Shown piece after piece: positions 3,568 through 18,812 of a stretch of DNA of 34,783 nt. The notes beneath the pieces are model-generated. The model worked only from the letters and a program-made list of their open reading frames with translations. It was not told where the DNA came from and did not search any database. The position numbers and the translations under genes were made by a program. Source of the DNA: Ruminococcus sp. (GTDB lineage: Bacteria; Bacillota; Clostridia; Oscillospirales; Ruminococcaceae); NCBI GenBank assembly GCA_017470535.1, contig JAFUYP010000053.1, forward strand, positions 1-34,783, in the 5' to 3' direction. Numbering within the stretch: the stretch's first letter is position 1; each line of letters starts with the position of its first letter.

Positions 3568-3653
3568 GCAGGAGTGGCGGAATGGCAGACGCGCTGGCTT
3601 CAGGTGCCAGTGATCGCAAGGTTGTGTGGGTTCAAGTCCCATCTCCTGCACCA
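3568..3653 (+). tRNA. tRNA-Leu (anticodon CAG), CCA encoded
   Basis: Acceptor arms GCAGGAG (3568-3574) and CTCCTGC (3643-3649) pair fully, with discriminator A at 3650 and encoded CCA at 3651-3653. The anticodon stem CTGGC/GCCAG encloses the loop TTCAGGT, giving anticodon CAG, which reads CUG codons. The T-loop GTTCAAGTC and a long type-II variable arm (around 3611-3626) fit leucine tRNA. It is flanked by its own promoter and terminator. Confidence 0.95.
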
Positions 3654-3658
3654 AAAAA

Positions 3659-3689
3659 GCGAGCTAAGCAAAGCTTAGTCCGCTTTTTT
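3659..3689 (+). terminator. Terminator of tRNA-Leu
   Basis: A ten-base stem with a two-base internal mismatch (3659-3668 with 3674-3683) is followed by six T's. It starts 5 nt after the CCA end. Confidence 0.85.
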
Positions 3690-3690
3690 G

Positions 3691-3735
3691 TATTATTCAC
3701 TATTCATTATTCATTCTTCATTATTCACTTTTCAG
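3691..3735. repeat. Short AT-rich tandem repeat (TTCATTAT-like units)
   Basis: Roughly five imperfect copies of ATTCA(T/C)T lie in tandem. There is no gene here. Together with the following terminator (3783-3808) and unremarkable sequence to 3909, this fills the gap between the tRNA and the acetolactate decarboxylase gene. Confidence 0.5.
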
Positions 3736-3782
3736 TAAAAACAAATGATTTCCTGCTGTCATCTTTTCCGTTTTCCACTTAC

Positions 3783-3808
3783 AAAAAGCTCGTATTTACG
3801 AGCTTTTT
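3783..3808. terminator. Bidirectional terminator-like hairpin without an obvious gene
   Basis: AAAAAGCTCGTA and TACGAGCTTTTT form a perfect 12-bp stem with a 2-nt loop and T-runs on both strands. No gene ends directly next to it; it may back up the tRNA terminator. Confidence 0.6.
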
Positions 3809-3909
3809 TCTTTTGCCCGTTGACTGCTGTCACAGCCGCACTTGAAGGCAAAGAGCAACCGCTATCTTGAACCACCAACGACATCTCAGTTGTTTCATAT
3901 CTTCGGAAA

Positions 3910-3937
3910 CAAAAACAGCCGGTCACACGACCGGCTG
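3910..3937 (-). terminator. Terminator of the acetolactate decarboxylase gene
   Basis: CAGCCGGTC and GACCGGCTG form a 9-bp stem with loop ACAC. On the leftward strand it is followed by a T-run (A's at 3911-3915). It lies 11 nt beyond the stop codon. Confidence 0.9.
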
Positions 3938-3948
3938 CTGCATTATTA

Positions 3949-5047: not shown

Positions 5048-6139
5048 TCAGGCTTCCTTGACCCATTCAAGCAGTCTTTCTCTTGCATCGGGTATATCCT
5101 CGCAGTAGATGCTCATGACCTCCTTAACATCTGCACCGTCTGCGAGCTTCTTCACAGTATCGGTACTTGCACCGAACCCTGCACTGCCCTGCGTTGCGAT
5201 AAGGTGTATCGTTTTGCCGGAGAGATCATTCTGTTCAAGGAATGTCGCCACCGGCATAGGTATATCTCCCCACCACAGCGGATAGATAAGTATTATGTCA
5301 TCATAGCCGCTTATGTCTATGCTCTCTATCTCCGGGCGTGCAGAGGAGCTTTTTTCATCTCCTGCGACTGAAACAGTATCAGCATAGCTTGACGGGTACT
5401 TTTTGCCTGTGAGTGTGATAGCCTTGCTTTCAAGCCCCGTGATGTCGCAGAGCATATCCGACAAAAGCTCATCACTTCCCATAAGCTCACCGTCAGCCTT
5501 CAGAAGCGATGCGCCCGATACTGCATCTATGTCCTCTTCAAAGTCGGTATTCCCGACCCTTGTGAAATAGACCACCAGCGCCTTGCCGTCCCAAGCCGCT
5601 TTCTCGCCTGTGACCTTTTCATCATAGCTTATCTCGACCATCTTTAAATGCCTGTTCATGTACGGCACAGCCGCAAGCCCTATCGCTAAGCACGCTGCAG
5701 CGATAACTGCTGTGAGGATAACGGCTTTCTTCTTTTTCTTAGCCCTGAAAACAAAGTGCATCATGCCGTGTACAGCGCCGAGCGTGAGCACCGACGTTGC
5801 AAGATACCTGTGAATATCCACGCTCTGGAAATGCTCGAACCACGGGAATATCGTCCTTGAAACGCCCATGCCGCTGATAACCATGGCGATAATGCTCAAA
5901 AGCAAAAGTATCGTTACTATGTCAAAGAATATCCTCTCCGGCTTTTTGTTTCTCAGTACCGCCTTGCGCCACCAGCTTTTCATGATAATATGAGCGATAA
6001 GGCATACAAAAAACGCTATCCCCATAAACTCATGGATAAGACTTCCTGTAAATACTATCATCATCTGTGCAAGCAATAGTACATACATAAGTATGTCGAT
6101 AACGATGCCTGCTGTCTTTTTAAGTTTGTTTTTTTCCAT
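5048..6139 (-). CDS. DUF4405-type membrane protein with C-terminal flavodoxin domain
   Basis: The 363-residue protein has five predicted membrane helices (about 11-31, 38-54, 72-92, 112-131, 139-158). Histidines in the helices and loops (H36, H49, H103, H110, H124, H128) resemble the cytochrome-b-like DUF4405 fold. Residues 184-363 form a flavodoxin-like domain: the FMN phosphate loop is YFTRVGNTD (191-199), and the aromatic loop and core are YPLWWGDIPMP. Positive-inside clustering (KNKLKK, RKAVLRNKK, RAKKKKK) places the flavodoxin domain outside the membrane. It may pass electrons across the membrane to an external FMN domain; this is inference. The start at 6139 has AAAGGAG upstream. Its promoter lies beyond a repeat element, which is thus in its 5' UTR. 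Confidence 0.75.
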   Translation of the reverse strand: MEKNKLKKTAGIVIDILMYVLLLAQMMIVFTGSLIHEFMGIAFFVCLIAHIIMKSWWRKAVLRNKKPERIFFDIVTILLLLSIIAMVISGMGVSRTIFPWFEHFQSVDIHRYLATSVLTLGAVHGMMHFVFRAKKKKKAVILTAVIAAACLAIGLAAVPYMNRHLKMVEISYDEKVTGEKAAWDGKALVVYFTRVGNTDFEEDIDAVSGASLLKADGELMGSDELLSDMLCDITGLESKAITLTGKKYPSSYADTVSVAGDEKSSSARPEIESIDISGYDDIILIYPLWWGDIPMPVATFLEQNDLSGKTIHLIATQGSAGFGASTDTVKKLADGADVKEVMSIYCEDIPDARERLLEWVKEA

Positions 6140-6152
6140 AAATACTCCTTTT

Positions 6153-6313
6153 AGGCAATACCGCACAAAGATTGTGATACAGATACGCAGTCAGATTTTT
6201 CGTTAGATTGCCCAAATTTACCGCAGGAATACTAACGTATTTCAAGGTAAATTTGGGTGATATGACGGAAAATCTGCAAGTATATGTGCCGCAATCTTTG
6301 TGCGGTGTTGCCT
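6153..6313. repeat. MITE-like palindromic repeat, family 1 variant, in a 5' UTR
   Basis: Terminal inverted repeats of 22 bp (AGGCAATACCGCACAAAGATTG and the complement of the right end, AGGCAACACCGCACAAAGATTG) differ at one base. Inner arms repeat the family core: CAGATTTT(C/T)CGT, then CCCAAATTTACC on each side of a short loop. The element ends about 5 nt before the ribosome site of the flavodoxin-domain gene. Its own promoter is on the far side, so the hairpin is transcribed. Confidence 0.85.
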
Positions 6314-6338
6314 TTAGCTCGACCTTTTGTGTGAAATG

Positions 6339-6367
6339 ATTATACCATAAATTTGTATTTTTTGCAA
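6339..6367 (-). promoter_or_regulatory. Promoter of the DUF4405-flavodoxin gene
   Basis: Leftward TTGCAA, 17 nt, TATAAT. The predicted transcript starts about 6332 and crosses the whole repeat at 6153-6313 before reaching the start codon at 6139. Confidence 0.75.
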
Positions 6368-6448
6368 TAGCATAAAGCTTTTTTCACGTTTGGCTACACA
6401 TTGAGTGATAGTTGTAGTTAAAGCTACAAAAGCGCAGAAAACTGACTA

Positions 6449-6477
6449 TTGTATTTTTTTATGGGTCGTGTTATTAT
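6449..6477 (+). promoter_or_regulatory. Promoter of the small signal-peptide-like gene
   Basis: TTGTAT, 17 nt, TATTAT. It lies 42 nt upstream of the start at 6519 and is divergent from the promoter at 6339-6367. Confidence 0.55.
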
Positions 6478-6518
6478 ATAGACACAGCAAAACGAAACAC
6501 AAAAAGGAGCGGATAAAA

Positions 6519-6617
6519 ATGAAAAGAAAGTCAAACACATTACTCGCAGCGGCAACTACACTTTTACTTGCAGCCGCAGCACTCAGCACATTCACATCAT
6601 ACGCACATACAGCGTAA
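6519..6617 (+). CDS. 32-residue secreted or membrane peptide, unknown function
   Basis: The peptide begins MKRKSNTLLAAATT, continues with a Leu/Ala-rich hydrophobic core and ends SYAHTA. The whole product therefore looks like a signal peptide with a possible cleavage site after SYA, leaving only three residues. A strong ribosome site (AAGGAG, 8 nt spacing), a promoter and an immediate terminator make it a complete minigene rather than a chance frame. It might be a precursor of a small signalling peptide, a membrane-acting peptide, or the remnant of a secreted protein gene. I do not recognise a family. Confidence 0.55.
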   Translation: MKRKSNTLLAAATTLLLAAAALSTFTSYAHTA

Positions 6618-6659
6618 AAACCCAAACCACCTACACACATTATAATAGATCTCCCCCAC

Positions 6660-6690
6660 CCCCCTGTTTTGTCAACAGGGGGACTTTTTT
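6660..6690 (+). terminator. Terminator of the small peptide gene
   Basis: CCCCCTGTT and AACAGGGGG pair perfectly around TTGTC; T's follow at 6685-6690. Confidence 0.88.
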
Positions 6691-6710
6691 GTCTTGAGGC
6701 AGTTACAGCA

Positions 6711-6739
6711 TTGACACGAAAGCAGTGATATGATATAAT
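6711..6739 (+). promoter_or_regulatory. Promoter of the zinc-ribbon protein gene, -10 inside a palindrome
   Basis: TTGACA, 17 nt, TATAAT. The -10 hexamer is the outer end of a perfect 12-bp stem, TATAATGAATGC (6734-6745) with GCATTCATTATA (6750-6761), so the hairpin arms also present a -10-like hexamer on the other strand. Confidence 0.75.
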
Positions 6740-6855
6740 GAATGCAAAAGCATTCATTATAAATTATTTCAATGCCCTTGCAGATACGCAAATCAAAGAT
6801 TTGCTCCCTGCATATCGGGCAATTATATCATAACGCTGCGCTTTTATGATATAAT
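6729..6855. repeat. Nested palindromes carrying TATGATATAAT three times
   Basis: TATGATATAAT occurs at 6729-6739 and 6845-6855, and inverted at 6822-6832. Between them lie the stem 6734-6761, the stem GCAAATC-AAA-GATTTGC (6788-6804) with outer TGCAG/CTGCA pairing, and the 12-bp stem ATTATATCATAA/TTATGATATAAT (6822-6855). The arrangement looks like a third small palindromic element placed in the 5' UTR of the zinc-ribbon protein gene. Confidence 0.6.
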
Positions 6856-6896
6856 CAGAATAAGACAGAATAAGATCATATAAGAGGTGATAAGTT

Positions 6897-7976
6897 ATGT
6901 TCTGCCCCGAATGCGGAAAACGGATAGATGATGCTTCAAATGCCTGCCCCGGATGCGGTCATTCCTTTGAAACAAATGCACCTGTCGTGCAGCCCGTGAT
7001 ACCGGTGATACCCGAACAGCCGCCCGCACAGGTAAGCGGCACAAGCTCTGTCAAGGTGTTCCTGATAACGGTGTTTATCGGTCTTGCAGCGCTCGCAGCA
7101 TTGATACTTTTCGTAACTCCCGGCTATCTGTTAAATAAGGACAGCGGCGACAGCAGCAGTATCAGCGGTGATGCCGTTTCGTCATCATCAGCAGACAGCA
7201 GTGAGCCGGAGACTACTACCACCACAGCACCGCCCGAGACCACTGCAACGACAACCACTGCCGAGACCACCGATACAGTGTCCGAAACGACCACTAAAAA
7301 AACAACATCTGAAACTACTGCAACATCAAAGACAACTACTACATCATCAGAAACTACTACTGCAACATCAGAAACTACCACCAAGCCCCAGACGACTACC
7401 AAAAAAGAGCAGGTCACCAACGTCACCAAAAAGACTACCAAAAAAGACAGCGGCTCTGATAAAGACAATACTGTAAAGCTGTTCACAGATCAGGAGCTTG
7501 CATCGTTTGATGATTTTGACTGGTGCTACGGTCAGGACAGTCTTGTGGCTTTCCCGCCGGAGGACGCACAGATGCTTACCCAGCCTGACGATTATACCGG
7601 CTCGTGGAAGGGCTTTATGGTATTTGACCCGACAGAACAGACAGAAGATCAGCTCCGTGAAACGCTGAATGTCAGCATTACATATGATAAGACCGACAGC
7701 AAGATAAAAGTAGTCTTAGACCCCTACTATATGCAGGCAGGAAAAACAGGCGGCGGCTTGGATCAGGAGTATGTGGAGGACGATATAGTCTTCAAAGGCA
7801 GCACGACCGGATCCGGGGGGATAATGGCAAACAATTCATATGAAGACGCAACGCTTCTTATAAACAGCATCTATGAGATAGACTCACAGCAGTACGCACT
7901 GGGGCAGATACAGTTCAATGACGCTTCAGGCGATATGGTATATATCTATTTCGCACTTACAAGAAATAAAGGATAA
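6897..7976 (+). CDS. Zinc-ribbon membrane protein with Thr-rich stalk and extracellular domain
   Basis: The 359-residue protein begins with a zinc ribbon (C3, C6, C17, C20; CPECG...CPGCG). A proline-rich stretch and one membrane helix follow at about 53-76, then a Thr/Ser-rich stalk at about 82-185 and a C-terminal domain at about 200-359. The zinc ribbon is cytoplasmic and the last domain is outside. The stalk repeats TTT and ETTT units, typical of wall-spanning linkers in this group of bacteria. The C-terminal domain is not one I can name. GAGGTGATAAGTT precedes the ATG. The stop codon overlaps the first base of a family-1 repeat remnant. Function unknown; a sensor or surface role is a guess. 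Confidence 0.8.
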   Translation: MFCPECGKRIDDASNACPGCGHSFETNAPVVQPVIPVIPEQPPAQVSGTSSVKVFLITVFIGLAALAALILFVTPGYLLNKDSGDSSSISGDAVSSSSADSSEPETTTTTAPPETTATTTTAETTDTVSETTTKKTTSETTATSKTTTTSSETTTATSETTTKPQTTTKKEQVTNVTKKTTKKDSGSDKDNTVKLFTDQELASFDDFDWCYGQDSLVAFPPEDAQMLTQPDDYTGSWKGFMVFDPTEQTEDQLRETLNVSITYDKTDSKIKVVLDPYYMQAGKTGGGLDQEYVEDDIVFKGSTTGSGGIMANNSYEDATLLINSIYEIDSQQYALGQIQFNDASGDMVYIYFALTRNKG

Positions 7977-7993
7977 GGCAACACCGCACGACC
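7976..7993. repeat. Family-1 repeat terminal remnant at a stop codon
   Basis: AGGCAACACCGCACGACC equals 18 bases of the family-1 terminal repeat. It starts on the last base of the preceding stop codon, and its end forms the left arm of the terminator. Confidence 0.75.
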
Positions 7994-8021
7994 GGAGAGG
8001 GCAGCTTCTCCGGTCGTTTTT
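7988..8021 (+). terminator. Terminator of the zinc-ribbon gene, built partly from repeat DNA
   Basis: ACGACCGGAGA (7988-7998) pairs with TCTCCGGTCGT (8007-8017), and T's run to 8021. Confidence 0.88.
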
Positions 8022-8104
8022 GCGTTTACTCACAAAATAAACAAATTAAACTATACTAAATTTGTATGTAATAAAGAATTATCAATTCACAGCGTTAAAA
8101 CCTA

Positions 8105-8133
8105 TTGACACGGTAGGTGATATGTGCTAAAAT
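8105..8133 (+). promoter_or_regulatory. Promoter of the Gcl-GATase-Suf operon
   Basis: TTGACA, 17 nt, TAAAAT, with TGC before the -10. The leader to the first start codon is about 50 nt, too short for a T-box or a large riboswitch. The spacer and -10 (GATATGTGCTA) match those of the tRNA promoter at 3447. Confidence 0.82.
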
Positions 8134-8189
8134 ATATATAATTCATACAGGCTAAATAGGAATATATTGGAAAATTTGGAGTGAATATC

Positions 8190-9575
8190 ATGACTAACGA
8201 CCAGCTAAACGAAGCACTATACACCAAATATATCTCCCCCACCAAAAAGCAGCGTGATGACAGCATAGGCATCGAGATAGAGATGCCGGTATCAGATCTG
8301 TCAGGCGGCGCCGTCTGTGAGGAAAAGATAATAGACGCAGCATCTGCTTTCAGAGAGCATTTCAGCTTTGAAGTCACAGGGCGTGACAACGACGGCAATG
8401 TAAATTCCATGACAGACCCGGTGACAGGCGATAATCTTTCCTTTGACTGCTCATATTCAAATTTAGAGCTTTCAATGGGCAAGGGGAATGATCTGCACAT
8501 TATCCACGACAGATTTAAAAAATACTACACATATATCCAGCAAAAGCTCTCACCGCTCGGCTATACGCTTACCGGTATGGGCATAAACCCGGGGTATAAT
8601 AAGAACCACAACAAGCCCGTTCCCAACGAGCGTTACAGAATGCTTTATCATTATCTTCATTCCTATCAGAGGTATGAAACAGCTGTCAATATGCGCTTTC
8701 ATGAGCGCCCTGATTTCGGCACGTTCACAAGTGCGTCGCAGGTGCAGCTCGATGTGGCATATGATGAGATTATTGATACTATAAATATATTCGGGCTGTT
8801 AGAGCCTTATAAGGCACGGCTTTTTGCAAATTCATATCTTCCTGAATACCCAGAGTATCTGTGTGTGAGAAATATGCTCTGGGAGCGCAGTATGCAGGGC
8901 TTCAATCCGCATAATGTCGGAATGTTTCAGGGCAGGCTTTCAAATATCGACGAGCTGCTCGAATATATAAAATCCCAGTCTGTCTACTGCACTATGCGTG
9001 ACGGCAGGTATATTGATTTCAAGCCTGTGTGCGTGCGTGATTATTTTGAGCTTGACAAGGTAAGCGGCGAATACTATGACGGCACAGACTACCGCAGAAT
9101 AGATTTTACACCCGAAAGCAGTGACCTTGAGTATCTCAGGACCTTCAAGTTTGAAGACCTCACCTTCCGTGGCACTATCGAATACCGCAGCTCCTGCTGC
9201 CAGCCGATAAGTGATGTCATGACGGTCTCAGCTTTCCATACAGGTCTTGCAGGCAAGCTCTCAGAGCTTAAAGAGCTGCTTGAAAATGATAATGTGTTAT
9301 ACACTCACGGTTACAGCGCAGCCGAGCTTCAGGATATGCTCTCAAAGCGCACGCTCCCGGCATTTATTGACAAGAGCGCACTTACCTGTCAGCTCAGAAG
9401 GATACTTGACCTTGCAGCAAGCGGTCTGAAAGCAAGGGGCAGAAACGAGGAGCATTATCTTGACGCTTTGTATGAAAGAGCAGAAAAGAACTCAAACCCT
9501 GCCCTTGAAATGGTGACAGGGCTTGAAAAAGGCGAAAGCATCAGAAAATATATCGAAAAATACTCGCAGGAATGA
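8190..9575 (+). CDS. Glutamate-cysteine ligase-like protein (GCS2 superfamily, EgtA/plant-like)
   Basis: The 461-residue protein has the ATP-dependent carboxylate-amine ligase start IGIEIEMPV (about 27-35). Around 165-215 it has an active-site region MRFHERPDFGTFTSASQVQLD...RLFANSY that resembles the M-x-x-T-x-x-Q-x-x-x-D and ALFANS segments of plant-type and EgtA ligases. The expected reaction joins glutamate gamma-carboxyl to cysteine (EC 6.3.2.2) or a related amine. The start at 8190 is preferred because GGAG lies 7 nt upstream; an in-frame GTG at 8181 has no room for one. It is the first gene of an eight-gene operon and stands 71 nt before a second, different ligase gene. The exact substrate cannot be read from sequence. 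Confidence 0.75.
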   Translation: MTNDQLNEALYTKYISPTKKQRDDSIGIEIEMPVSDLSGGAVCEEKIIDAASAFREHFSFEVTGRDNDGNVNSMTDPVTGDNLSFDCSYSNLELSMGKGNDLHIIHDRFKKYYTYIQQKLSPLGYTLTGMGINPGYNKNHNKPVPNERYRMLYHYLHSYQRYETAVNMRFHERPDFGTFTSASQVQLDVAYDEIIDTINIFGLLEPYKARLFANSYLPEYPEYLCVRNMLWERSMQGFNPHNVGMFQGRLSNIDELLEYIKSQSVYCTMRDGRYIDFKPVCVRDYFELDKVSGEYYDGTDYRRIDFTPESSDLEYLRTFKFEDLTFRGTIEYRSSCCQPISDVMTVSAFHTGLAGKLSELKELLENDNVLYTHGYSAAELQDMLSKRTLPAFIDKSALTCQLRRILDLAASGLKARGRNEEHYLDALYERAEKNSNPALEMVTGLEKGESIRKYIEKYSQE

Positions 9576-9646
9576 TCTTTTCTCTACGGGCATCCATGAA
9601 AATACACATATCAGCGATATTTTTTAATATTACGAGGTAACAATAT

Positions 9647-10789
9647 ATGAAACATACTATATATGACGGCTTTTTCGGTCTTGAACGTGAAACGCTCAGG
9701 GTAGACAAAAACAGCCGGCTCGCACAGTCCCCCCACCCGTTCGGAGATAATGAAATCATCACCAGAGATTTCTGCGAAAACCAGATAGAGCTTATAACCC
9801 CTGTGTGCAGCAGCATAGACGAAGTAATGGATAAGCTGTCACAGCTTGATAAAGAAGTCAGAGATGAGCTTTCAAAAAACGGTGAACGTATATGGCTCTA
9901 CTCAAATCCGCCGTACTTTAAATCTGAGGACGAGATACCGGTCGCAGATTTCAAAGGCGAGTATTCCGGCAAGCGCAGCTACCGTGAGCAGCTGCAGCGC
10001 AGGTACGGCAAACGCCTTATGCTCTTTTCAGGGATACATTTTAACTTCTCTTTCTCTGATGAATACTTGAAGTCTATATCAGACTGTACAGATTTTCGTA
10101 CATTTAAAAATAGCTTCTATATGCGCCTGTATAAGCAGCTTAGTATCCACAGCTGGCTGCCGCTGCTGCTGACAGCATCGAGCCATATCTGCGAACGCTC
10201 ACTGTATAAAGACGGCGACAGCGGCGTGCTTGCAACTCCATACGCATCTATACGAAGCGGCAAAGAGGGCTACTGGAACGAGTTTATCCCCGTCCTTGAC
10301 CATACCGATATAGACAGCTTTATAGCAAGTATACAGAACTATGTCGATAAGGGCGCACTATTCTCGGCAAGCGAGCTTTACCTGCCTGTAAGATTAAAGC
10401 CCGTCGGTGTCAATTCACTTGACAGCTTTAAAAACGGCATCAGCCACATAGAGCTCAGAATGTTTGACTTAAACCCGTTCACTCCGCTCGGCATTGATGA
10501 GAGAGATCTTCGCTTCACTCATCTGCTGATAATGTATCTGTCCCAAAAAGAGGACTTTGATTATACAGAGGATATGCAGCGCCGGGCACTTGCAGAGCAT
10601 CAGAGCGCTGCACTTTACGACCTGTCGGAAGTTATGATAGGCAATACACCTATCATAGAGAAGGCAAAGGAGATAATAAACAGCATGAGAGCTTTCTTTG
10701 CAAAAGATGAAAACGCACAGAAGGTACTTGACCATGCAGAAAGCAGGCTTGATAACAGGCTTTGTGAAAAAGAGATAAATATATACTGA
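9647..10789 (+). CDS. Glutamate-cysteine ligase (GshA/GshF-N type)
   Basis: The 380-residue protein carries the GCS1-type signatures GLERETLRV (11-19), SPHPFG (28-33) and ITRDFCENQIELITPV (38-53), then LFSGIHFNFSF. These match the N-terminal ligase module of bifunctional GshF and stand-alone GshA. It is shorter than E. coli GshA (about 518 aa) and has no ATP-grasp glutathione synthetase module. It should form gamma-glutamylcysteine from glutamate, cysteine and ATP. GAGGTAACAATAT precedes the ATG; the next gene follows after 23 nt. No glutathione synthetase gene is visible in the window, so gamma-glutamylcysteine itself may be the product used. Confidence 0.85.
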   Translation: MKHTIYDGFFGLERETLRVDKNSRLAQSPHPFGDNEIITRDFCENQIELITPVCSSIDEVMDKLSQLDKEVRDELSKNGERIWLYSNPPYFKSEDEIPVADFKGEYSGKRSYREQLQRRYGKRLMLFSGIHFNFSFSDEYLKSISDCTDFRTFKNSFYMRLYKQLSIHSWLPLLLTASSHICERSLYKDGDSGVLATPYASIRSGKEGYWNEFIPVLDHTDIDSFIASIQNYVDKGALFSASELYLPVRLKPVGVNSLDSFKNGISHIELRMFDLNPFTPLGIDERDLRFTHLLIMYLSQKEDFDYTEDMQRRALAEHQSAALYDLSEVMIGNTPIIEKAKEIINSMRAFFAKDENAQKVLDHAESRLDNRLCEKEINIY

Positions 10790-10812
10790 TACAAAAAAGG
10801 AGGGGGCAGAAA

Positions 10813-11562
10813 ATGTGTGAACTCCTCGGGTTCTGCTCTGCCAGACCCGAAAACATAAAAGACCAGCTGAGGGAATTCTACTCCCACAGCGAACAGCACA
10901 GACACGGCTGGGGCATAATGTACCCGGGGCTGTGTGAAAAGGGCGCAGACAAGGCAAACGACAGCGAAAAGCTGAAAAAGATACTTCAAAGCCTTGAACC
11001 GCAGTCGGTGCTGCTCGGGCATATACGCTTTGCAACAGTAGGCTCGGTCAAAACAGTCAACTGTCACCCGTTCACAGCCCGTGACAACACCGGACGTGAG
11101 TGGACTCTCATACATAACGGCACTATCTATTCAGGCAGCCAGCTTATGGAGTTTCTGAGCCGTCAGTCGGGCGATACCGATTCGGAGCGGCTGTTTTTGC
11201 ACCTTTTAAAGAAGCTAGACTTGGCACAGCAAAACGGCGCACTTGACGAGCGTGGCAGATTTGAACTGATAGACGCACTTGTCCGTGAGATGTCGCCGAG
11301 AAATAAGCTCAACCTTATGATATATGACGGCGAGATAATGTATATCCATAAGAACATGAGCGACACGATGAAGTATAAAAAGACCCCGTTCGGATATTTG
11401 TTTTCGACTGCCGCACTTGATAACGGCGAGTGGAAAAGCGTTCCCACCGCACAGCTTTTAGCGTTCAGAGACGGGAAAAAAATATTCACCGGGGAAAAGC
11501 ATAACGGCGTGTTCATACCCACGCTGCAATATATCAAGGCATCAGATGCCATGAACATTTAA
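10813..11562 (+). CDS. Class II glutamine amidotransferase, YafJ/EgtC family
   Basis: The Ntn-hydrolase fold is shown by Cys2 as nucleophile (MCELLGF), HRHGWGI (29-35), GHIRFATVG (69-77), NCHPF (83-87) and IHNGT (100-104). These are the hallmarks of stand-alone glutaminase-like proteins such as YafJ and EgtC. EgtC hydrolyses a gamma-glutamyl amide bond in ergothioneine synthesis. Here the protein follows two gamma-glutamylcysteine ligases by 23 nt and precedes sufC by 12 nt, so a gamma-glutamyl hydrolase or transferase acting on their product is a sensible hypothesis. The ribosome site AAGGAGG is strong. No synthetase domain is attached. Length 249 aa is normal for the family. Confidence 0.85.
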   Translation: MCELLGFCSARPENIKDQLREFYSHSEQHRHGWGIMYPGLCEKGADKANDSEKLKKILQSLEPQSVLLGHIRFATVGSVKTVNCHPFTARDNTGREWTLIHNGTIYSGSQLMEFLSRQSGDTDSERLFLHLLKKLDLAQQNGALDERGRFELIDALVREMSPRNKLNLMIYDGEIMYIHKNMSDTMKYKKTPFGYLFSTAALDNGEWKSVPTAQLLAFRDGKKIFTGEKHNGVFIPTLQYIKASDAMNI

Positions 11563-11574
11563 AGGAGAAAAGCA

Positions 11575-12324
11575 ATGGCAAGTTTACTTAAAGTCGAGGA
11601 CTTAAACGTCACAGTCGGGCAGACAGAGCTTCTGCACGGCATTGATCTTTTAATAGACCAAAACGAAACTCACGTCCTTATGGGACCAAACGGTGCAGGA
11701 AAATCCACCTTGGGCTCTGCGATAATGGGCAGCCCGGAGTATACTGTCACAAACGGCAGGATACTCTTTAACGGTGATGATATAACTCATCAGACAGCAG
11801 ACAAGCGTGCAAAGAAGGGGATATTCCTCTCCTTCCAGACGCCTGTTGAGATACCCGGGATAACAATGACCGAGTTTTTAAGAAACGCCTGCGAACAGGT
11901 CAGCGGCAAGCGCATGAAGCTGTGGGATTTCAGAAAAAAGCTCAAAGCCACCATGCAGCTGCTCGAAATGGACGAGGAGTACGCCGAAAGAGAGCTTAAC
12001 GTAGGCTTCTCCGGCGGCGAAAAGAAAAAAGCAGAGATATTGCAGCTGCTTATGCTCTCACCAAGGCTTGCGATACTTGACGAAACAGATTCAGGTCTTG
12101 ATGTAGACGCCGTCAGGACAGTGTCAAAGGGAATAGAGGAATTCAGGCGAACCACAGGCGGCTCGCTTTTAGTCATCACCCACAATGTCAAGATACTTGA
12201 CTCTTTAAGCGTTGACAAAACACATATACTTGTAAGCGGCAGCATAGCCGAAAACGGCGGCAGCGAGCTTGTAGCAGACGTGCTGCAAAACGGATTTGAA
12301 AGATTTATAAATAAGGAAAGCTGA
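11575..12324 (+). CDS. sufC: Fe-S cluster assembly ATPase SufC
   Basis: ABC-type ATPase of the SufBCD scaffold that assembles Fe-S clusters in the cytoplasm. Walker A GPNGAGKST is at 37-45, the signature FSGGEKKK at 145-152, and Walker B LAILDE at 165-170, followed by TDSGLD. The EKK after the signature is typical of SufC. Length is 249 aa. AAAGGAG precedes the ATG by 7 nt. It starts the suf part of the operon, 12 nt after the amidotransferase gene and 2 nt before sufB. Confidence 0.97.
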   Translation: MASLLKVEDLNVTVGQTELLHGIDLLIDQNETHVLMGPNGAGKSTLGSAIMGSPEYTVTNGRILFNGDDITHQTADKRAKKGIFLSFQTPVEIPGITMTEFLRNACEQVSGKRMKLWDFRKKLKATMQLLEMDEEYAERELNVGFSGGEKKKAEILQLLMLSPRLAILDETDSGLDVDAVRTVSKGIEEFRRTTGGSLLVITHNVKILDSLSVDKTHILVSGSIAENGGSELVADVLQNGFERFINKES

Positions 12325-12326
12325 AA

Positions 12327-13736
12327 ATGGCAGAGAAGATAAAAGTAGATGACATCGACCGCTCGATGTACGATTTCAGGTATGAGGACAACGTAGAGGA
12401 TCACCTTACCACAGGTATCTCACCTGAGATGATAGAAGAAATATCCAAAGAGAAAAACGACCCCGACTGGATGAGGGAGCTAAGGCTCAAATGCCTTGAC
12501 ATCTACAACAAGACCCGTATGGTAAACTGGGGTCCGTCAATAAAAGAGCTGAGTGTCGATGAGATAGTAACATACATAAGACAGAAAAACCGTATGAAAG
12601 AAAACTGGGATGAAGTGCCCGAAAATATCAAGGAGACTTTCGAGCGCCTGGGCATACCGCAGGCAGAAAGAGAGAGCCTTGCAGGTGTTGGCGCACAGTA
12701 CGACTCCGAGCTTGTGTATCACAATGTCAGGAAAGAGGTCGCAGAATCGGGTGTTGTGTATACCGACCTTGAAAGTGCTATGCACGATGAGCGCTATAAA
12801 GACATGATAAAGTCGCACTTCATGAAGCTCGTTCCCCCGACAGACCATAAGTTTGCAGCACTGCACGGTGCTGTGTGGTCGGGCGGCAGCTTTGTGTATG
12901 TGCCGAAGGGCGTTAAGCTCGATATACCGCTTCAATCATATTTCAGATTGAATGCCAAGGGCGCAGGACAGTTTGAGCATACGCTCATTATCCTTGAAGA
13001 GGACAGCTACCTGCATTTTATCGAGGGCTGCTCGGCTCCTAAATACTATAAAGCCGGACTGCATGCAGGCTGTGTCGAGCTGTATGTCGCAAAGGGTGCT
13101 AAGCTCAGATACTCCACTATCGAGAACTGGTCAAAGAATATGTATAACCTGAACACCAAGCGTGCCTTAGTCGAAGAAAACGGCTCGGTCGAGTGGGTGT
13201 CGGGCAGCTTCGGCTCTCATGTGAGCTACCTCTACCCTATGAGCATTTTAAACGGCAGGGGCGCATCGGCAGAGTTTACCGGCATAACCTTTGCAGGCGA
13301 GGGTCAGGAGCTTGATACGGGTACAAAGATAATACACAACGCCCCCGATACATCATCATATGTAAATACAAAATCAATAAGCAAGTCAGGCGGTGCAAGC
13401 ACCTTCAGAAGTGCGATAGTCGTCAAAGAAAACGCTGTTGGCTCCAGATCATCAGTCAACTGCGAGTCGCTGATGCTTGACAGCATCTCACGCTCCGATA
13501 CAGTGCCTGTCATGGATATACGCACCAAGCACGCTGATGTCGGGCATGAGGCAAGGATAGGAAGGATCAGCAGCGATGCTGTATTCTACCTGATGTCAAG
13601 AGGGCTCAGCGAGGAGGAAGCAAAGGCTATGATAGTCAGGGGCTTTGCAGACAATGTTTCAAAGGAGCTGCCGCTTGAATACGCAGTCGAGATGAACAAT
13701 CTCATAGGTCTTGAAATGAACGGGAGTGCAGGATAA
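12327..13736 (+). CDS. sufB: Fe-S cluster scaffold SufB
   Basis: Scaffold subunit of 469 residues, normal for SufB. It contains the family stretches GVVYTDLESAM, FVYVPKGVKLDIPLQSYFR and FEHTLIILEEDSYLHFIEGCSAP, and the terminal region TKHADVGHEA-x-IGRISSD-x-x-FYLMSRGLSE. It forms a beta-helical core with SufD and is driven by SufC. The stop codon abuts the sufD start (TAA-ATG), so translation is coupled. Gene order C-B-D-S-U differs from the C-D-S-U-B order of Bacillus. Confidence 0.97.
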   Translation: MAEKIKVDDIDRSMYDFRYEDNVEDHLTTGISPEMIEEISKEKNDPDWMRELRLKCLDIYNKTRMVNWGPSIKELSVDEIVTYIRQKNRMKENWDEVPENIKETFERLGIPQAERESLAGVGAQYDSELVYHNVRKEVAESGVVYTDLESAMHDERYKDMIKSHFMKLVPPTDHKFAALHGAVWSGGSFVYVPKGVKLDIPLQSYFRLNAKGAGQFEHTLIILEEDSYLHFIEGCSAPKYYKAGLHAGCVELYVAKGAKLRYSTIENWSKNMYNLNTKRALVEENGSVEWVSGSFGSHVSYLYPMSILNGRGASAEFTGITFAGEGQELDTGTKIIHNAPDTSSYVNTKSISKSGGASTFRSAIVVKENAVGSRSSVNCESLMLDSISRSDTVPVMDIRTKHADVGHEARIGRISSDAVFYLMSRGLSEEEAKAMIVRGFADNVSKELPLEYAVEMNNLIGLEMNGSAG

Positions 13737-14609
13737 ATGGAAAACATAAAACTTAATACCCTGCCCGTGCCGACCTTCCGCTGGCTCGGGGTAAACTTCG
13801 CTGACAAGGCTGTGCAGCATATAGACGCTCCCTCCGCTGAAATAGATTTTTCAGACGGCGAGACCGTCAGGATAGATGTCAGGGACAGCACGCATATAAA
13901 CGCAGATGTCCCCGACAACAGCACAGGCACGCTGATACTTTACTGTGACGCTGACAGCGAGATACGCCTTAGCGGCAGTATAAATGTCGGTGCATACAGT
14001 GATGTAAAGATAGTGCAGATCTTTAACGGCGCTGCAAGTACAGTCGGCGGACTGCGCATCAAAGCCGCAGACGGCGCATCTGTCAGACTGGTGCAGCTTT
14101 TTATCGGCGGCGGACAGAACATAAGCGAAACAGACGTTACCCTTTCGGGCTATAAGTCAAAGCTCGTGACAGATATAGGCTATCTGCTCTCTGATAATGA
14201 TAAGCTCGATATAAACCTTATCGCAAGGCACGCCGGCAAAAAAACTCAGAGCGAGATAAATGTAAAAGGCGTTATGAACGACGAGAGCGAAAAGACCTTC
14301 AAGGGGACTATCGACTTTCTGTGCGGTTCATCCGGCGCTAAGGGAGCAGAAAAAGAGGACGTTATGCTGCTTGGCGATAAGGTGCAAAACAAGACCGTCC
14401 CCCTTATCCTGTGTGCAGAAGAAGATGTTGAGGGCGAGCATGGCGCATCAGTCGGCAGGATAGATGATGAGCTTATGTTCTATATGCTCTCCCGTGGTCT
14501 TGATGAACAGACAGCGATAGATCTGCTTGCACGCTCAAAGATAAGCAGCGTCATCTCAAAGATAGACGACGAGCAGACCGTAAAGCGCCTTGACAGTGAG
14601 CTTTTGTGA
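13737..14609 (+). CDS. sufD: SufD-like Fe-S assembly subunit (short form)
   Basis: The 290-residue protein shows the SufBD beta-helix pattern. A C-terminal block ASVGRIDDELMFYMLSRGLDEQTA resembles the end of SufB/SufD and is followed by a short tail. It is much shorter than Bacillus or E. coli SufD (about 420-440 aa) and lacks the long N-terminal helical part, a form common in Clostridia. It directly follows sufB with no gap and ends 10 nt before the sufS start. Role: partner of SufB and SufC in the scaffold. Confidence 0.88.
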   Translation: MENIKLNTLPVPTFRWLGVNFADKAVQHIDAPSAEIDFSDGETVRIDVRDSTHINADVPDNSTGTLILYCDADSEIRLSGSINVGAYSDVKIVQIFNGAASTVGGLRIKAADGASVRLVQLFIGGGQNISETDVTLSGYKSKLVTDIGYLLSDNDKLDINLIARHAGKKTQSEINVKGVMNDESEKTFKGTIDFLCGSSGAKGAEKEDVMLLGDKVQNKTVPLILCAEEDVEGEHGASVGRIDDELMFYMLSRGLDEQTAIDLLARSKISSVISKIDDEQTVKRLDSELL

Positions 14610-14619
14610 GGTGAGAGCA

Positions 14620-15843
14620 ATGAGTGACGCAAAAAACTATAAAGCTGATTTTCCGGTTTTTTCCGGCAACAAAGACTTAGTTTACCTTGACAGCTCAGCC
14701 ACCACGCAAAAGCCGCAGGCAGTGCTCGACGCTGTTAATAAATATTACCATGAGGAAAACGCAAACCCCCTGCGTGGGCTTTATGAGCTGAGCGTCAGGG
14801 CGACCGATGCTTATGATAACGCAAGAGAAACAGTAAAACAGTTCATAGGTGCAGGCAGTAAAGAGGAGATAGTATTTACACGCAACGCCACCGAGAGCTT
14901 AAACCTTGTAGCTTACAGCTACGGGCGTGAGTTTATAAACGAGGGCGACGAGATACTTGTAGCTATTTCAGAGCATCACAGCAATTTCCTGCCGTGGCAG
15001 CAGATAGCCTTGCAAAAGGGCGCAAAGGTAAGATTTTTAGAAACAGACCATACAGGTCTGTATACCAAAGAGCAGCTTGAAGCCGCACTAACGCCAAAGA
15101 CAAAGCTCCTTGCGATAGCGCAGATCTCAAATGTATTCGGAAGACTTAACCCCATAAAGGACTTTGCAGACATCTGCCATAAAAACGGCACGCTCATAGT
15201 CTGCGATGCCGCCCAGAGTGCGCCGCATCTTAAAATAGACGTAAAAGACCTTGATGTGGACTTTTTAGTGTTCTCGGGGCATAAGATGCTTGCTCCTATG
15301 GGGATAGGCGTGCTTTACGGCAGACGTGACCTGCTTGAAAAAACGCCTCCGTTTCTCTACGGCGGCGAGATGATAGAATATGTCACCCGTGACGGAGCGA
15401 CATTCGCTCCCCTGCCGCATAAGTTTGAAGCAGGTACAGTAAATGTCGGCGGCGCAGTCGGGCTGAAAGCAGCTATCGACTATATAAACGACAATGACTT
15501 TGATAAACTTATAGACCGTGAGCATGAGCTTACCGCTTATGCCTTTGACCTTATGAAAAACATACCCTTCGTAAACATCATAGGCGGCGATAAGGCAGAG
15601 CATCATCACGGGATAATAACATTCGCAGTCGAGGGTGTCCATCCTCATGATATAGCGGCGATATTTGACGCAGACAATATAGCGATAAGGGCAGGGCATC
15701 ACTGCGCCCAGCCGCTGCATAAAACTCTCGGCGTGCCGTCAAGCGCAAGAATGAGTCTGTCGTTCTATAATGACGAGCAGGATATAGACAGATTTATCTC
15801 CACACTTAAAACGATAAGGGGGCGTATGGGATATGGCGGATAG
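14620..15843 (+). CDS. sufS: Cysteine desulfurase SufS
   Basis: PLP enzyme that takes sulfur from cysteine, giving alanine and a protein persulfide (EC 2.8.1.7). In the 407-residue product the PLP lysine is K222 (FSGHKMLAPMG) and the persulfide cysteine C362 (RAGHHCAQPLH), with NATESLN and DAAQSAPH nearby. These fit group II desulfurases. The start at 14620 has GAGGTGAGAGCA upstream; a TTG further upstream would overlap sufD and lacks a ribosome site. Its last 11 nt overlap sufU, its expected sulfur acceptor. Confidence 0.97.
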   Translation: MSDAKNYKADFPVFSGNKDLVYLDSSATTQKPQAVLDAVNKYYHEENANPLRGLYELSVRATDAYDNARETVKQFIGAGSKEEIVFTRNATESLNLVAYSYGREFINEGDEILVAISEHHSNFLPWQQIALQKGAKVRFLETDHTGLYTKEQLEAALTPKTKLLAIAQISNVFGRLNPIKDFADICHKNGTLIVCDAAQSAPHLKIDVKDLDVDFLVFSGHKMLAPMGIGVLYGRRDLLEKTPPFLYGGEMIEYVTRDGATFAPLPHKFEAGTVNVGGAVGLKAAIDYINDNDFDKLIDREHELTAYAFDLMKNIPFVNIIGGDKAEHHHGIITFAVEGVHPHDIAAIFDADNIAIRAGHHCAQPLHKTLGVPSSARMSLSFYNDEQDIDRFISTLKTIRGRMGYGG

Positions 15844-16267
15844 CTTTTACGGCGAGGTGCTTGCAGATCATAACCTCCACCCGCTGCACAGGCATGAGCT
15901 TGCAGACGCAACACACGTCTGTAAGGGGTTAAATCCCACCTGCGGCGACGATATAGAGCTTCACCTTGATATAAAGGACAATATCATCAGCGACGGGTCT
16001 TTCACAGGTATAGGCTGTGCTATCTCTCAGGCAAGTGCGGATATAATGCTCGAGCTTGTTATAGGAAAGACTCCGGACGAAGCAAAACACTTAACAGCAC
16101 TTTTCAGAAAGATGATAGGCGGCGAAATAAGTGATGATGAGCTTGAAGAGCTTGAAGAAGCCGGTGCATTGCAGACAATATCAAAGATGCCTGCAAGGGT
16201 GAAATGTGCCACCCTTAGCTGGAACACACTTGAAAGGCTGCTTGACGAAAGCACACATGAGCATTAA
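15833..16267 (+). CDS. sufU: Sulfur-transfer protein SufU
   Basis: Zinc-dependent sulfurtransferase that accepts persulfide sulfur from SufS. Of 144 residues, C37, D39, C62 and C125 match the zinc and sulfur ligands of Bacillus SufU (PTCGDD, GIGCAIS, VKCATLSW). An 18- to 20-residue insertion between the second and third cysteines, as in SufU but not IscU, is present (ISDDELEELEE region). It overlaps sufS and is the last gene of the operon; a bidirectional terminator follows. Confidence 0.95.
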   Translation: MADSFYGEVLADHNLHPLHRHELADATHVCKGLNPTCGDDIELHLDIKDNIISDGSFTGIGCAISQASADIMLELVIGKTPDEAKHLTALFRKMIGGEISDDELEELEEAGALQTISKMPARVKCATLSWNTLERLLDESTHEH

Positions 16268-16298
16268 GGCAGCACTGCGATCTTTGTGCGGTGATGCC
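16266..16298. repeat. Deleted family-1 repeat remnant after sufU
   Basis: AAGGCAGCACTGC (left-arm-like) is directly joined to GATCTTTGTGCGGTGATGCC (right-arm-like). These correspond to the ends of the 6153-6313 element with the interior lost. As at 7976, it begins within a stop codon. Confidence 0.65.
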
Positions 16299-16331
16299 AA
16301 AAAAAGGGACTGCGCCATGCAGTCCCTTTTT
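16299..16331. terminator. Bidirectional terminator between sufU and ilvE
   Basis: GGGACTGC (16306-16313) and GCAGTCCC (16319-16326) pair around GCCAT, with A's before and T's after, so it serves both converging genes. Confidence 0.92.
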
Positions 16332-16346
16332 CATATGATCATATCA

Positions 16347-17414
16347 TCAGTCTACCTTAACGACCCAGCCGAACTTGTCCTCTATCTTGCCCCACTGTAT
16401 ACCTGTCATGGTATCATAAAGCATCTGCGAGATCTTGCCTATCTTGTTGTCGTTGATAGTCATTACCTTGTCGCCCCACTTCAAGTGACCAACAGGTGAG
16501 ATAACTGCCGCTGTGCCGGTGCCGAATACCTCGTCGAGCTTGCCGGCATCATAAGCATCTGCGACCTCCTGAATGGTTATCCTGCGCTCGGTAGCCTTGA
16601 TGCCCTTGCTCTTACATACTTCGAGAGCGCTCTTTCTTGTGATACCCGGCAGTACAGAGCCTGTCAGCTCAGGAGTTATTACCTCGCCGTCTATAACAAA
16701 GAAGATGTTCATAGAGCCGACCTCTTCAATGTACCTCTGCTCAACACCGTCGAGCCACAGTACCTGCTCGTAATCCTGATCGTGAGCCTCGTCCTGACCC
16801 TTTAAGGATATAGCGTAGTTTGCAGCAGTCTTGGCAAAACCGGTACCACCTCTTACTGCACGGACATACTTCTGCTCAACATAGATCTTAACAGGATCAA
16901 GACCAGTCGAATAGTACGGACCTGAGGGAGAGAGTATTATCAGGAACAGATAATGGTCTGCCGGCTTAACGCCAACATACGGATCTGTTGCAAAAATGAA
17001 GGGTCTGATGTAAAGCGATGCACCGTCAGTGTGCGGTACCCAGTCCTTCTCGATGCTGATGAGCTTCTTGGTAGCCTCGATCATGAACTGCTCATCTATC
17101 TTAGGAATTACCATACGCTCAGCAGAAACGTTCATTCTCTTGTAGTTCTCGTCAGGTCTGAAAAGCTGAACTGTGCCGTCAGCTGTTCTGTATGCTTTAA
17201 GACCCTCAAAGATCTCCTGACCATAATGCAGGCACATAGCCGCAGGTGAGAGAGTAACATTGTCAAAAGGAACTATCCTTGCATCATGCCAGCCCTGACC
17301 TGCATCATAATTCATTGCAAACATATGGTCTGTAAAGATATGACCGAATCCGAGCTTGCTCTCATCAGTAGGCTTTGCCTTGGGTGTTTTGGTCTGTTCA
17401 AACCTTATTTCCAT
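16347..17414 (-). CDS. ilvE: Branched-chain amino acid aminotransferase
   Basis: Class IV PLP aminotransferase making valine, leucine and isoleucine from their keto acids (EC 2.6.1.42). In the 355-residue product the PLP lysine is K195 in GGTGFAKTAANY. The motifs LHYGQEIFEGLKAYR, EEVGSMNIFFV and FGTGTAAVISPVG are those of the eukaryote-like long BCAT group. It stands alone with its own promoter; the leader is about 28 nt, so there is no T-box or peptide attenuator. Confidence 0.96.
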   Translation of the reverse strand: MEIRFEQTKTPKAKPTDESKLGFGHIFTDHMFAMNYDAGQGWHDARIVPFDNVTLSPAAMCLHYGQEIFEGLKAYRTADGTVQLFRPDENYKRMNVSAERMVIPKIDEQFMIEATKKLISIEKDWVPHTDGASLYIRPFIFATDPYVGVKPADHYLFLIILSPSGPYYSTGLDPVKIYVEQKYVRAVRGGTGFAKTAANYAISLKGQDEAHDQDYEQVLWLDGVEQRYIEEVGSMNIFFVIDGEVITPELTGSVLPGITRKSALEVCKSKGIKATERRITIQEVADAYDAGKLDEVFGTGTAAVISPVGHLKWGDKVMTINDNKIGKISQMLYDTMTGIQWGKIEDKFGWVVKVD

Positions 17415-17449
17415 GATTTTTTCCTTCTTTCAAAAATAATTCTTTATAT

Positions 17450-17478
17450 ATTATAATACTTTTTAAAGCATTTTTCAA
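17450..17478 (-). promoter_or_regulatory. Promoter of ilvE
   Basis: Leftward TTGAAA, 17 nt, TATAAT. Confidence 0.82.
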
Positions 17479-17590
17479 GCCCTTTTATGAAAAAAATGAA
17501 TTTTTTTGTTTTCAAACTTTCATTTTCGGGTCATTTACGCCCCTGCCGCTCCTGAAAAGTGCCGTGAATAGCGGAAAATCCTCCCATACA

Positions 17591-17619
17591 TTGACAAATC
17601 GACAAAAAAGGATTATAAT
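17591..17619 (+). promoter_or_regulatory. Promoter of the DUF3048 lipoprotein gene
   Basis: TTGACA, 17 nt, TATAAT, both hexamers perfect; 57 nt upstream of the start codon. Confidence 0.87.
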
Positions 17620-17675
17620 AGTTATAGTACCGGCATATACCGGATAAGCAAATGCTTTTGAGGAGAACGATATCA

Positions 17676-18812
17676 ATGAGAAATATATATATAAAGGCAG
17701 CGGTGTGTGCAATGCTCTGCCTTGCGATAACAGCAAATATCACTGCCTGCGGTAAAAAGCCCGAGGAATTAAAGCCTGACGAGACAACTACCACTGCACA
17801 GACCACAACAGTCACCACTGCTCAGACAGAGAAAGCCACCACCACCACGACCACTTCGACCGCTAAAAAGAAAAAAAAGAAAGCCAAAGAGAAAAAGGAA
17901 AACTATAATCCTCTTACCGGTCTTTTCGATGTAGCTAACAAGTCAAAGGGCAGGCGTCCTGTCGCAGTAATGGTCAATAATATCGTGGACGCACTGCCTC
18001 AGTACGGTATATCAAAGGCTGACATAATATTCGAGATACCTGCTGAGGGCGGCATCACAAGGCTGATGGCTGTCTACGGCGATGAGTCGGATATACCTGA
18101 TGTATGCTCTATAAGGAGCGGCAGATATTATTTTGCTTTCTTTGCACAGTCATTTGATGCTGTCTATATGCACTGGGGCATTGACAAAAAGCTCGCTCTC
18201 CCGCTGATAGAGGAGCTGGGTATAGATCATATAGATGACTCTTACTACGGCACACTCTTTGAGCGTGACCCTGACAGATCATATATGTCAATGGAGCATA
18301 CCGGCTATCTTATCGGTGAAAATGTCATGAGTACGATAGATGCGTCCGGCATCAGGAGCAATACAAAGGACGGCTACAACAGCTTCTTCAAGTTCTATGA
18401 TGAATTCACAAAGCCGAAGGGCGACAAGTGTACACAGGCGATAGTCAACTTCTCCGACTGGTATGTGTCGCAGTTTGACTATGACAAAAAGACCAACACC
18501 TATAAAAAACTCCACAACGGTGAAAAGCATATGGACAGCAAGGCAGACAAGCAGCTTGAATTCAAAAACCTCCTGCTGCTCGAAAGCGAGGATATGCACG
18601 TCATCAGAGAGGATAACGGTCTTATAAGCGTTGACTGGAAGGGCGGAAACGGCTATCTTGTGACTGCCGGCAAAGTCCAGCCGATAACATGGAGCAAGGA
18701 GGACGAGTTTGCAAAGCTCATCATCAAGGACGAAAACGGCAAAAAGATAACCTTAAACACCGGCAAGACCTATATCGGCGTTACCAAGAAAGGTACTATA
18801 TCACTCAACTGA
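17676..18812 (+). CDS. DUF3048 (YerB-type) lipoprotein
   Basis: The 378-residue protein has a lipoprotein signal peptide ending ITAC at about residue 25, a Thr-rich linker with a lysine block (about 40-75), and a YerB/DUF3048 domain. That domain starts at NPLTGL and contains RPVAVMVNN, DIIFEIPAEGGITRLMAVY and CSIRSGRYYF. Members are extracytoplasmic and of unclear biochemical role, possibly in the cell envelope. The start at 17676 has AGGAG upstream at a somewhat long spacing of 10 nt; an ATG at 17652 has none. It converges on the LCP gene, and a shared hairpin lies between them. Confidence 0.85.
   Translation: MRNIYIKAAVCAMLCLAITANITACGKKPEELKPDETTTTAQTTTVTTAQTEKATTTTTTSTAKKKKKKAKEKKENYNPLTGLFDVANKSKGRRPVAVMVNNIVDALPQYGISKADIIFEIPAEGGITRLMAVYGDESDIPDVCSIRSGRYYFAFFAQSFDAVYMHWGIDKKLALPLIEELGIDHIDDSYYGTLFERDPDRSYMSMEHTGYLIGENVMSTIDASGIRSNTKDGYNSFFKFYDEFTKPKGDKCTQAIVNFSDWYVSQFDYDKKTNTYKKLHNGEKHMDSKADKQLEFKNLLLLESEDMHVIREDNGLISVDWKGGNGYLVTAGKVQPITWSKEDEFAKLIIKDENGKKITLNTGKTYIGVTKKGTISLN

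Follow-up and report, generated by a model that had tools for sequence, protein, structure and literature searches.

Among the described systems, those nearest in logic to the genes considered here are the EgtA-EgtC pair of ergothioneine synthesis and the yeast Dug2p-Dug3p system, for which, to our knowledge, no paired ligase is known. In the excerpts consulted, Dug2p-Dug3p is presented as a glutamine amidotransferase that splits glutamate off gamma-glutamyl sulfur peptides (PMC7617739), and as a degradation system restricted to fungi (PMC7340319). We have analyzed a 34,783-nucleotide stretch of DNA from Ruminococcus sp. (assembly GCA_017470535.1, contig JAFUYP010000053.1), referred to here as the window, in which a set of suf genes is preceded by ligA (8190-9575, + strand), ligB (9647-10789, +) and gat (10813-11562, +). 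These encode, respectively, a carboxylate-amine ligase of the GCS2 or plant glutamate-cysteine ligase (GCL) type of 461 aa, a GshA/GshF-N-type ligase of 380 aa without the C-terminal ATP-grasp half of GshF, and a protein of the class II (Cys2) glutamine amidotransferase fold related to YafJ, EgtC and GATase_4. On balance we think it probable, though well short of certain, that these first three genes of the operon form a cysteine-regulon module for making and hydrolysing a gamma-glutamyl compound of cysteine, with gamma-glutamylcysteine as its likeliest identity. No paper about this gene set was found in the open-licence literature, judged by title or by the start of the abstract.

The association of the ligase and hydrolase genes is widely conserved. 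A scan of genome contigs returned 126 relatives of LigB, and the best 80 were analyzed as loci. In 75 of these, ligB and gat are adjacent; relatives thus have a conserved neighbourhood, the absence of which the initial annotation had named as grounds for refutation. On the same strand and within 1.5 kb of ligB or gat, ligA is found in 49 loci, and elsewhere in the fetched stretch in six. The order of the genes varies (ligA-ligB-gat, ligB-gat-ligA, gat-ligA-ligB and gat-ligA), while adjacency is kept, and one genome has the two ligases as a single fused protein next to gat. Three loci (L044, L061, and L062) where clustering of open reading frames (ORFs) gave no LigB do have it in the locus scan. 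Whole genomes were followed up for 24 of the 31 loci with no neighbouring ligA on the same strand: a LigA match was present in 13 (weak in G431 and G450) and absent from 11; several of these genomes are metagenome assemblies of unstated completeness. The suf genes behave differently, being immediately 3' of gat in just 8 of the 80 loci, 68 of which have gat followed by 1 kb or more of sequence, and close by on the opposite strand in L017; on the LigB tree, where 8 of 46 named rows are suf-linked, this label changes five times. Linkage to Suf was rejected as the defining feature of the module because of its low frequency. The conserved unit is one or more ligases together with gat; from the proposal of a three-gene set standing beside sufC across genomes, the trio survives and the suf genes directly downstream do not.

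Co-occurrence across genomes follows the same pattern, and includes a third ligase, LigC. With score thresholds chosen after wide score gaps were seen, 372 genomes of the class Clostridia contained strong sets of 8 LigA, 11 LigB, 5 LigC, and 17 gat genomes, and the overlap with gat was 8/8, 8/11, and 5/5, respectively. Any of the three ligases was present in 15 of the 17 genomes with gat, compared with 3 of the 355 without it. The exceptions are G387 and G404 (the latter with a GshF-like protein), which have gat and none of the three ligases, and G308, G366, and G377, which have a ligase and no gat. In the five genomes carrying LigC, ligC is always immediately upstream of gat. Fisher tests applied to these counts, and to the neighbour counts given below, treat related genomes or adjacent ORFs as independent.

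The link to cysteine comes from the DNA in front of these genes. New in this analysis is an operator dyad, CCTATTGACA-N3-TAGG, that overlaps the −35 box of the ligA promoter; in the window the exact dyad CCTATTGACACGGTAGG occupies positions 8101-8117 and is a putative Rrf2/CymR-type site. Within the assembly of the window's own genome (G000; 2.1 Mb, 76% complete), the sole other copy of the motif is upstream of cysK. Two copies each, one before ligA and one before cysK, are found in G000, G004, and G005, and G006 has at least two in the same positions; in G446 one site lies ∼200 nt upstream of a pair of genes for CysK and cystathionine gamma-lyase (CGL). The operator is thus common to the ligA operon and cysK. 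Its relaxed form, CCTA-N9-TAGG, occurs 46 times in the 80 loci (1.04 Mb) against 21 times for 15 other spacers together. From a reading of the listing, 30 of the 46 sites are before ligA or ligB (24 loci), 5 before cysK, 3 before sufS (one of them shared with Rrf2), 2 before a run of Rrf2, ligB, gat, and CGL genes, and 6 elsewhere. Among the sites listed, 25 of 36 distinct ones have a −10-like hexamer at a spacing of 17 after TTGACA.

Dyads also stand before ligC, or before a run of genes that includes it, at four of the five ligC-gat loci. They are upstream of ligC itself in L214 and L216 (in the latter, inside an over-long ORF), upstream of sufS in a sufS-sufU-ligC-gat run in L217, and 237 nt before the CGL gene of a CGL-CysK-MetN-MetI-ligC-gat run in L222; none was found in the fifth locus, L218. 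The 28 control loci, which carry other ligases of the same families and no gat, have 3 dyads over their 347 kb, all lacking TTGACA. Since the operator is shared with cysK, and similar dyads precede sufS and genes for Rrf2/CymR-like proteins, the module is placed in the cysteine regulon. In a separate observation, most of the dyad matches on contig C2 of G005 belong to a repeated element with CCTAYSYGTAGCGTAGG, or a sequence near it, as its core.

Genes of sulfur metabolism are also found next to the module, including those for CysK, cystathionine gamma-lyase, LuxS, and SufS-SufU; a neighbouring protein with hexapeptide repeats may be CysE. The neighbour test used loci outside the first 80 and a reference set of sulfur genes drawn from the earlier clustered loci, which may miss divergent genes. 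Around 17 LigA, LigB, or LigC loci, 16 of 172 ORFs were sulfur genes (in 6 of the 17 loci), compared with 0 of 287 around the 28 control loci. In 11 of the 17 loci gat is within the fetched stretch; the others are L155 (gat on another contig), L154, L167, L168, L170, and L227. Six separate LigA loci of Ruminococcus-type genomes gave 9 sulfur genes among 64 ORFs. The tie to cysteine metabolism proposed in the initial annotation is borne out by these neighbours together with the operator common to cysK and sufS. In L071, the end of ligA is overlapped by a gene (5253-6341, +) for a rhodanese-TusA-DsrE fusion, and homologues as well as ThiF genes are near the separate ligA in Ruminococcus albus-type genomes (L223 and L233).

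The neighbours and the operator bear on two other explanations. One is that the ligases act on sulfur-free amines and belong to the cysteine regulon only by coincidence. The remoteness of LigA from proven GCLs and a methionine in LigB where Escherichia coli GshA has Q144 would suit it, but an operator common to cysK and sufS, and sulfur neighbours that are absent from all 28 control loci, make it very improbable in our view. The other holds that the gamma-glutamyl moiety is a temporary protecting group in the salvage of homocysteine, S-substituted cysteine, or methionine as a source of cysteine; the N-acetylation route under CymR in Bacillus is a comparable salvage. Consistent with this are the neighbouring genes for cystathionine gamma-lyase, LuxS, MTHFR, MetN, and MetI, a cluster of FMN-reductase-like proteins (a weak match of 41 bits, cut-off 164) encoded upstream of ligA in L006, L008, L084, and L085, and a CymR-like regulon, which implies activity under cysteine shortage. 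No enzyme that would act between ligation and hydrolysis is constant at these loci, however, and we regard the salvage route as distinctly unlikely.

The candidate regulator is a protein of the Rrf2 family. Its genes occur in 12 of 88 clustered loci, and in all six other genus genomes searched. In an alignment reading that leaves out two unrelated L217 ORFs taken in by size, the Rrf2 proteins of Ruminococcus loci are without the IscR cysteine triad and eight of nine end in MYYI; a match to NF047409 scored 94.6 bits, with a cut-off of 195. The likeness to the CymR-CysK regulon of Bacillus subtilis consists of an Rrf2 protein with a ...YYI tail and of cysK under a shared operator, which is found in G000, G004, and G005. 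Identity of this operator with a CymR site is putative; the regulon here differs in holding gamma-glutamyl ligases, gat, and suf. CymR-type control turns its genes on during a shortage of cysteine. If control of the operon is CymR-like, it would be on under scarcity, and for that reason retention and mobilization of cysteine would fit better than storage of an excess. In excerpts of published work, CymR is listed with those partners of CysK that have an isoleucine motif at the C terminus (PMC12895370), and CysK is reported to stabilize CymR on DNA (PMC4961446).

The first ligase is a distant member of its superfamily. LigA matches GCS2 with 26.8 bits, and the plant GCL model TIGR01436 with 39.2 bits (equivalog cut-off 463.15); the NCBIfam profile search reported no match to the EgtA model. 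The GCS2 family named in the initial annotation agrees with this. LigA belongs to a conserved family of 42 rows, and as a profile it aligns with plant GCL structures 6gmo and 2gwc over positions 25-446 of 459, at 55.8 bits, so that the likeness to plant-type GCL and EgtA extends along most of the length at very low similarity. LigC is closer to plant GCL (124 bits to 6gmo). More distant relatives also exist: a LigA-like family of ∼400-495 aa is present in other genomes of the class (L099-L118), and nine loci examined from it (L158-L166) have neither gat nor sulfur neighbours, while a distant relative of LigC lies within an 864-aa protein in L276 (G159:C20), a second fused ligase of the superfamily.

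The second ligase is of another lineage, as had been proposed, and the family matches agree on this. LigB matches Glu_cys_ligase with 195 bits, and over residues 5-306 it can be aligned with the 3ln6 ligase domain (140 bits); scores against NF002688 (265.9 bits, cut-off 425) and TIGR01434 (135.7 bits, cut-off 393.3) are below the cut-offs. The 57 LigB rows of the alignment and tree, which include the window protein twice, are invariant at E13, E15, D41, E48, H131, R203, E269, and R271. There is invariance at the positions aligned with E27, E29, D60, E67, H150, E328, and R330 of E. coli GshA, residues that we take to be catalytic. LigB thus shares the ligase domain and these residues with GshA and GshF, but differs in having no ATP-grasp half, in forming a separate clade from 19 GshA/GshF proteins (SH-like approximate likelihood ratio test, SH-aLRT, 100; the tree was a quick one and carries a long-branch warning at that split), and in six substitutions; no glutathione synthetase was found in the genus genomes searched. 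The substitutions form a signature of R40, N45, N87, M125, A177, and H267 in place of T, S, M, Q, G, and Y, at positions fixed or nearly fixed both in LigB and in the 19 proteins compared. M125 aligns with E. coli Q144 and H267 with Y326. We take Q144 to contact the cysteine moiety; a literature search on this returned nothing.

The presence of two ligases allows a further explanation, in which they act in sequence to make an undescribed low-molecular-weight thiol (e.g. a bis-gamma-glutamyl compound or gamma-Glu-Cys-X) that Gat trims in the manner of EgtC. LigA and LigB occur together in 6 of the 372 class genomes, and their genes are close together in the 49 loci mentioned above. In G321 (L151:1778-4438, −) they are joined in a fusion of 887 aa (LigA residues 4-458, LigB 479-856) adjoining gat, which fits a sequential route, although it is known from this one genome, and in G135, which shares its genus code, the two are separate proteins. 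The fixed signature of LigB would fit a new thiol as well. So would an ATP-grasp protein of 396 aa (3639-4829, +) encoded after ligB-gat in L082 (Erysipelotrichaceae), in whose genome no LigA was found, and genes of an M20 peptidase cluster directly after gat in L049 (8024-9163, +) and L057 (3657-4363, +), typed in L049 only. The latter also recall the peptidase partners of yeast Dug3. Against a sequential route, each ligase can be the sole type beside gat (LigB in L169, with no LigA in G334; LigA in L156; LigC in five loci), and no other tailoring enzyme is constant. We consider this explanation rather unlikely. A bolder version is doubtful: LigA and LigB would together, in two steps or as two subunits, make a gamma-glutamyl thiol so far undescribed that serves Ruminococcus as its main low-molecular-weight thiol, with Gat opening it when needed to feed cysteine to SufS and with a CysK-sensing repressor of the CymR type in control. 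For the retention of two ligases within a gamma-glutamylcysteine module, our leading guess is that the two serve different acceptors or form one complex.

Gat matches GATase_4 with 105 bits. It has the N-terminal Cys2 and the glutamine-pocket residues of class II (N-terminal nucleophile, Ntn) amidohydrolases, with M1, C2, R72, H85, N102, G103, and D123 kept in 39 of 39 rows; the roles of these residues are presumably those of the class. On this pattern it is a putative gamma-glutamyl amidohydrolase; a direct release of NH3 from Gln was also considered as its role. Gat shares the class II Cys2 family with EgtC and matches its structure 4zfj (26.4 bits), but a conserved hypothetical protein that we take to be of the YafJ kind, 1te5, is closer (86.6 bits), and Gat scores 44.9 bits against the EgtC equivalog model (cut-off 218.65). 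The assignment of gene 3 to the class II amidotransferases is upheld, then, with EgtC as a distant match.

Two known pathways were considered and rejected. The case against ergothioneine synthesis is the low EgtC score together with EgtD (PF10017), which is above the cut-off in none of the seven genus genomes (one weak match; only three of the seven are at least 90% complete). The case against glutathione synthesis is that glutathione synthetase (PF02955) has no match in G000 and the C-terminal half of GshF gave only matches below 30 bits in the seven genus genomes.

Several observations weigh against the assignment of the module to cysteine. LigA is very remote from proven ligases, its similarity to plant GCL being low even as a profile, and although it was found in 7 of 7 genus genomes, a search of 30 further genomes from the family gave it once and one of 24 from the order not at all. 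The six substitutions in LigB, including Q144 to M and Y326 to H, are fixed changes near the active site, because of which its acceptor may be other than cysteine. Sulfur neighbours are lacking at 11 of the 17 LigA, LigB, or LigC loci, and four loci with gat only (L215 and L219-L221) gave 0 of 47 ORFs. The bare dyad is not over-represented genome-wide in G000 (13 sites, compared with 27 for the reversed pattern), no exact dyad is present in any of the eight loci that bear the title R. flavefaciens, and in G427, an R. albus assembly, the two copies of the TTGACA type stand upstream of cysK and of a gene of the CGL family and not of its trio. No relative of Rrf2 was detected at E 1e-20 in G000, which is 76% complete, and the type of regulator is not uniform, because the Rrf2 proteins at L070, L076, L169, L217, and L222 keep the IscR cysteine triad.

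In the mechanism that we propose for a gamma-glutamylcysteine module, LigA and/or LigB would use ATP to form an amide bond between the gamma-carboxyl group of glutamate and the amino group of cysteine, as their families and conserved residues suggest, and Gat, judged by its family, would remove the gamma-glutamyl group to give cysteine back. The gamma-glutamyl pool would keep scarce cysteine less reactive and retained in the cell, and make it available again for protein synthesis and, at loci with linked suf, for SufS. An Rrf2-family, CymR-like repressor bound at the −35 dyad may control the operon together with cysK, both the binder and the sign of control being predicted. Supply of cysteine to SufS is plausible, as at most one use of the module, because so few loci have suf directly downstream of gat. 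The initial annotation suggested that the trio may store cysteine and release it for SufS, or make an undescribed thiol; the conserved unit and the cysteine link are retained here, and release to SufS in that general form is not.

The operon in the window has eight rightward genes between one sigma-70-like promoter (8105-8133, +; TTGACA-17-TAAAAT with TG, 11 of 12 consensus positions) and one hairpin, much as first described. The gaps between the genes, recomputed from the ORF list, are 71, 23, 12, 2, 0, 10, and −11 nt, taking ATG 14620 as the start of sufS where the list has TTG 14590. For ligA, ATG 8190 is the most likely start rather than the GTG 8181 of the list, because the GGAG at 8178-8181, a predicted Shine-Dalgarno sequence, overlaps that GTG. 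All components of a SUF system follow on the + strand, four above their NCBIfam cut-offs and SufD by its Pfam core: sufC (11575-12324; TIGR01978, 299 bits), sufB (12327-13736; TIGR01980, 670 bits), sufD (13737-14609; SUFBD_core, with TIGR01981 at 160 bits below the cut-off of 222), the cysteine desulfurase gene sufS (14620-15843; TIGR01979, 538 bits), and sufU for a sulfur-transfer protein (15833-16267; TIGR01994, 157 bits). The terminator hairpin (16301-16331; 13-bp stem, 5-nt loop) was missed by the consensus terminator scan; the 56-nt stretch has a folding energy of −22.6 kcal/mol (z −3.9). It is probably bidirectional, converging with a gene on the − strand (16347-17414). The consensus scan found no promoter-like or terminator-like site between gat and sufC that would separate the suf genes from those upstream. 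Elsewhere in the operon, the + strand has two 10/12 promoter-like sites inside sufB (12496 and 13477), two of 9/12 (8764 and 15960), and weak resemblance to a terminator at three places (11744, 12869, and 12974); over 6000-18500 on both strands, promoter-like sites numbered 27 compared with 19.6 in shuffles, and terminator-like sites 13 compared with 11.3.

Other features were seen in the window and at related loci. Upstream of the operon, a perfect 12/12 sigma-70-like promoter overlaps a 12-bp hairpin (6711-6761), a copy of the operator with two mismatches lies inside another hairpin (6663-6679), and a gene on the − strand (5048-6166) encodes a membrane-type region like DUF4405 and cytochrome b561 (weak matches) fused to flavodoxin. 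A beta-lactamase-family protein (PF00144; typed in L035:7080-7964, −) is encoded in 19 loci, mostly antisense just 5' of ligB and often between ligA and ligB. Nine loci have an ORF for a small protein (typed in L031:6328-6573, +) whose score for the ACT domain just reaches the cut-off; this ORF ends between 8 nt within and 10 nt upstream of ligA or ligB.

In the open literature searched, there is little on the thiol chemistry of Clostridia from gut and rumen, and the module suggests an undescribed form of cysteine management in such bacteria. If this is true, a regulated pairing of a hydrolase with any of three ligases would be the bacterial equivalent of a gamma-glutamyl cycle, without glutathione synthetase, and control of cysteine would be tied directly to the assembly of Fe-S clusters. 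Through the shared operator the idea can be tested in two species that grow in culture, R. albus and R. flavefaciens.

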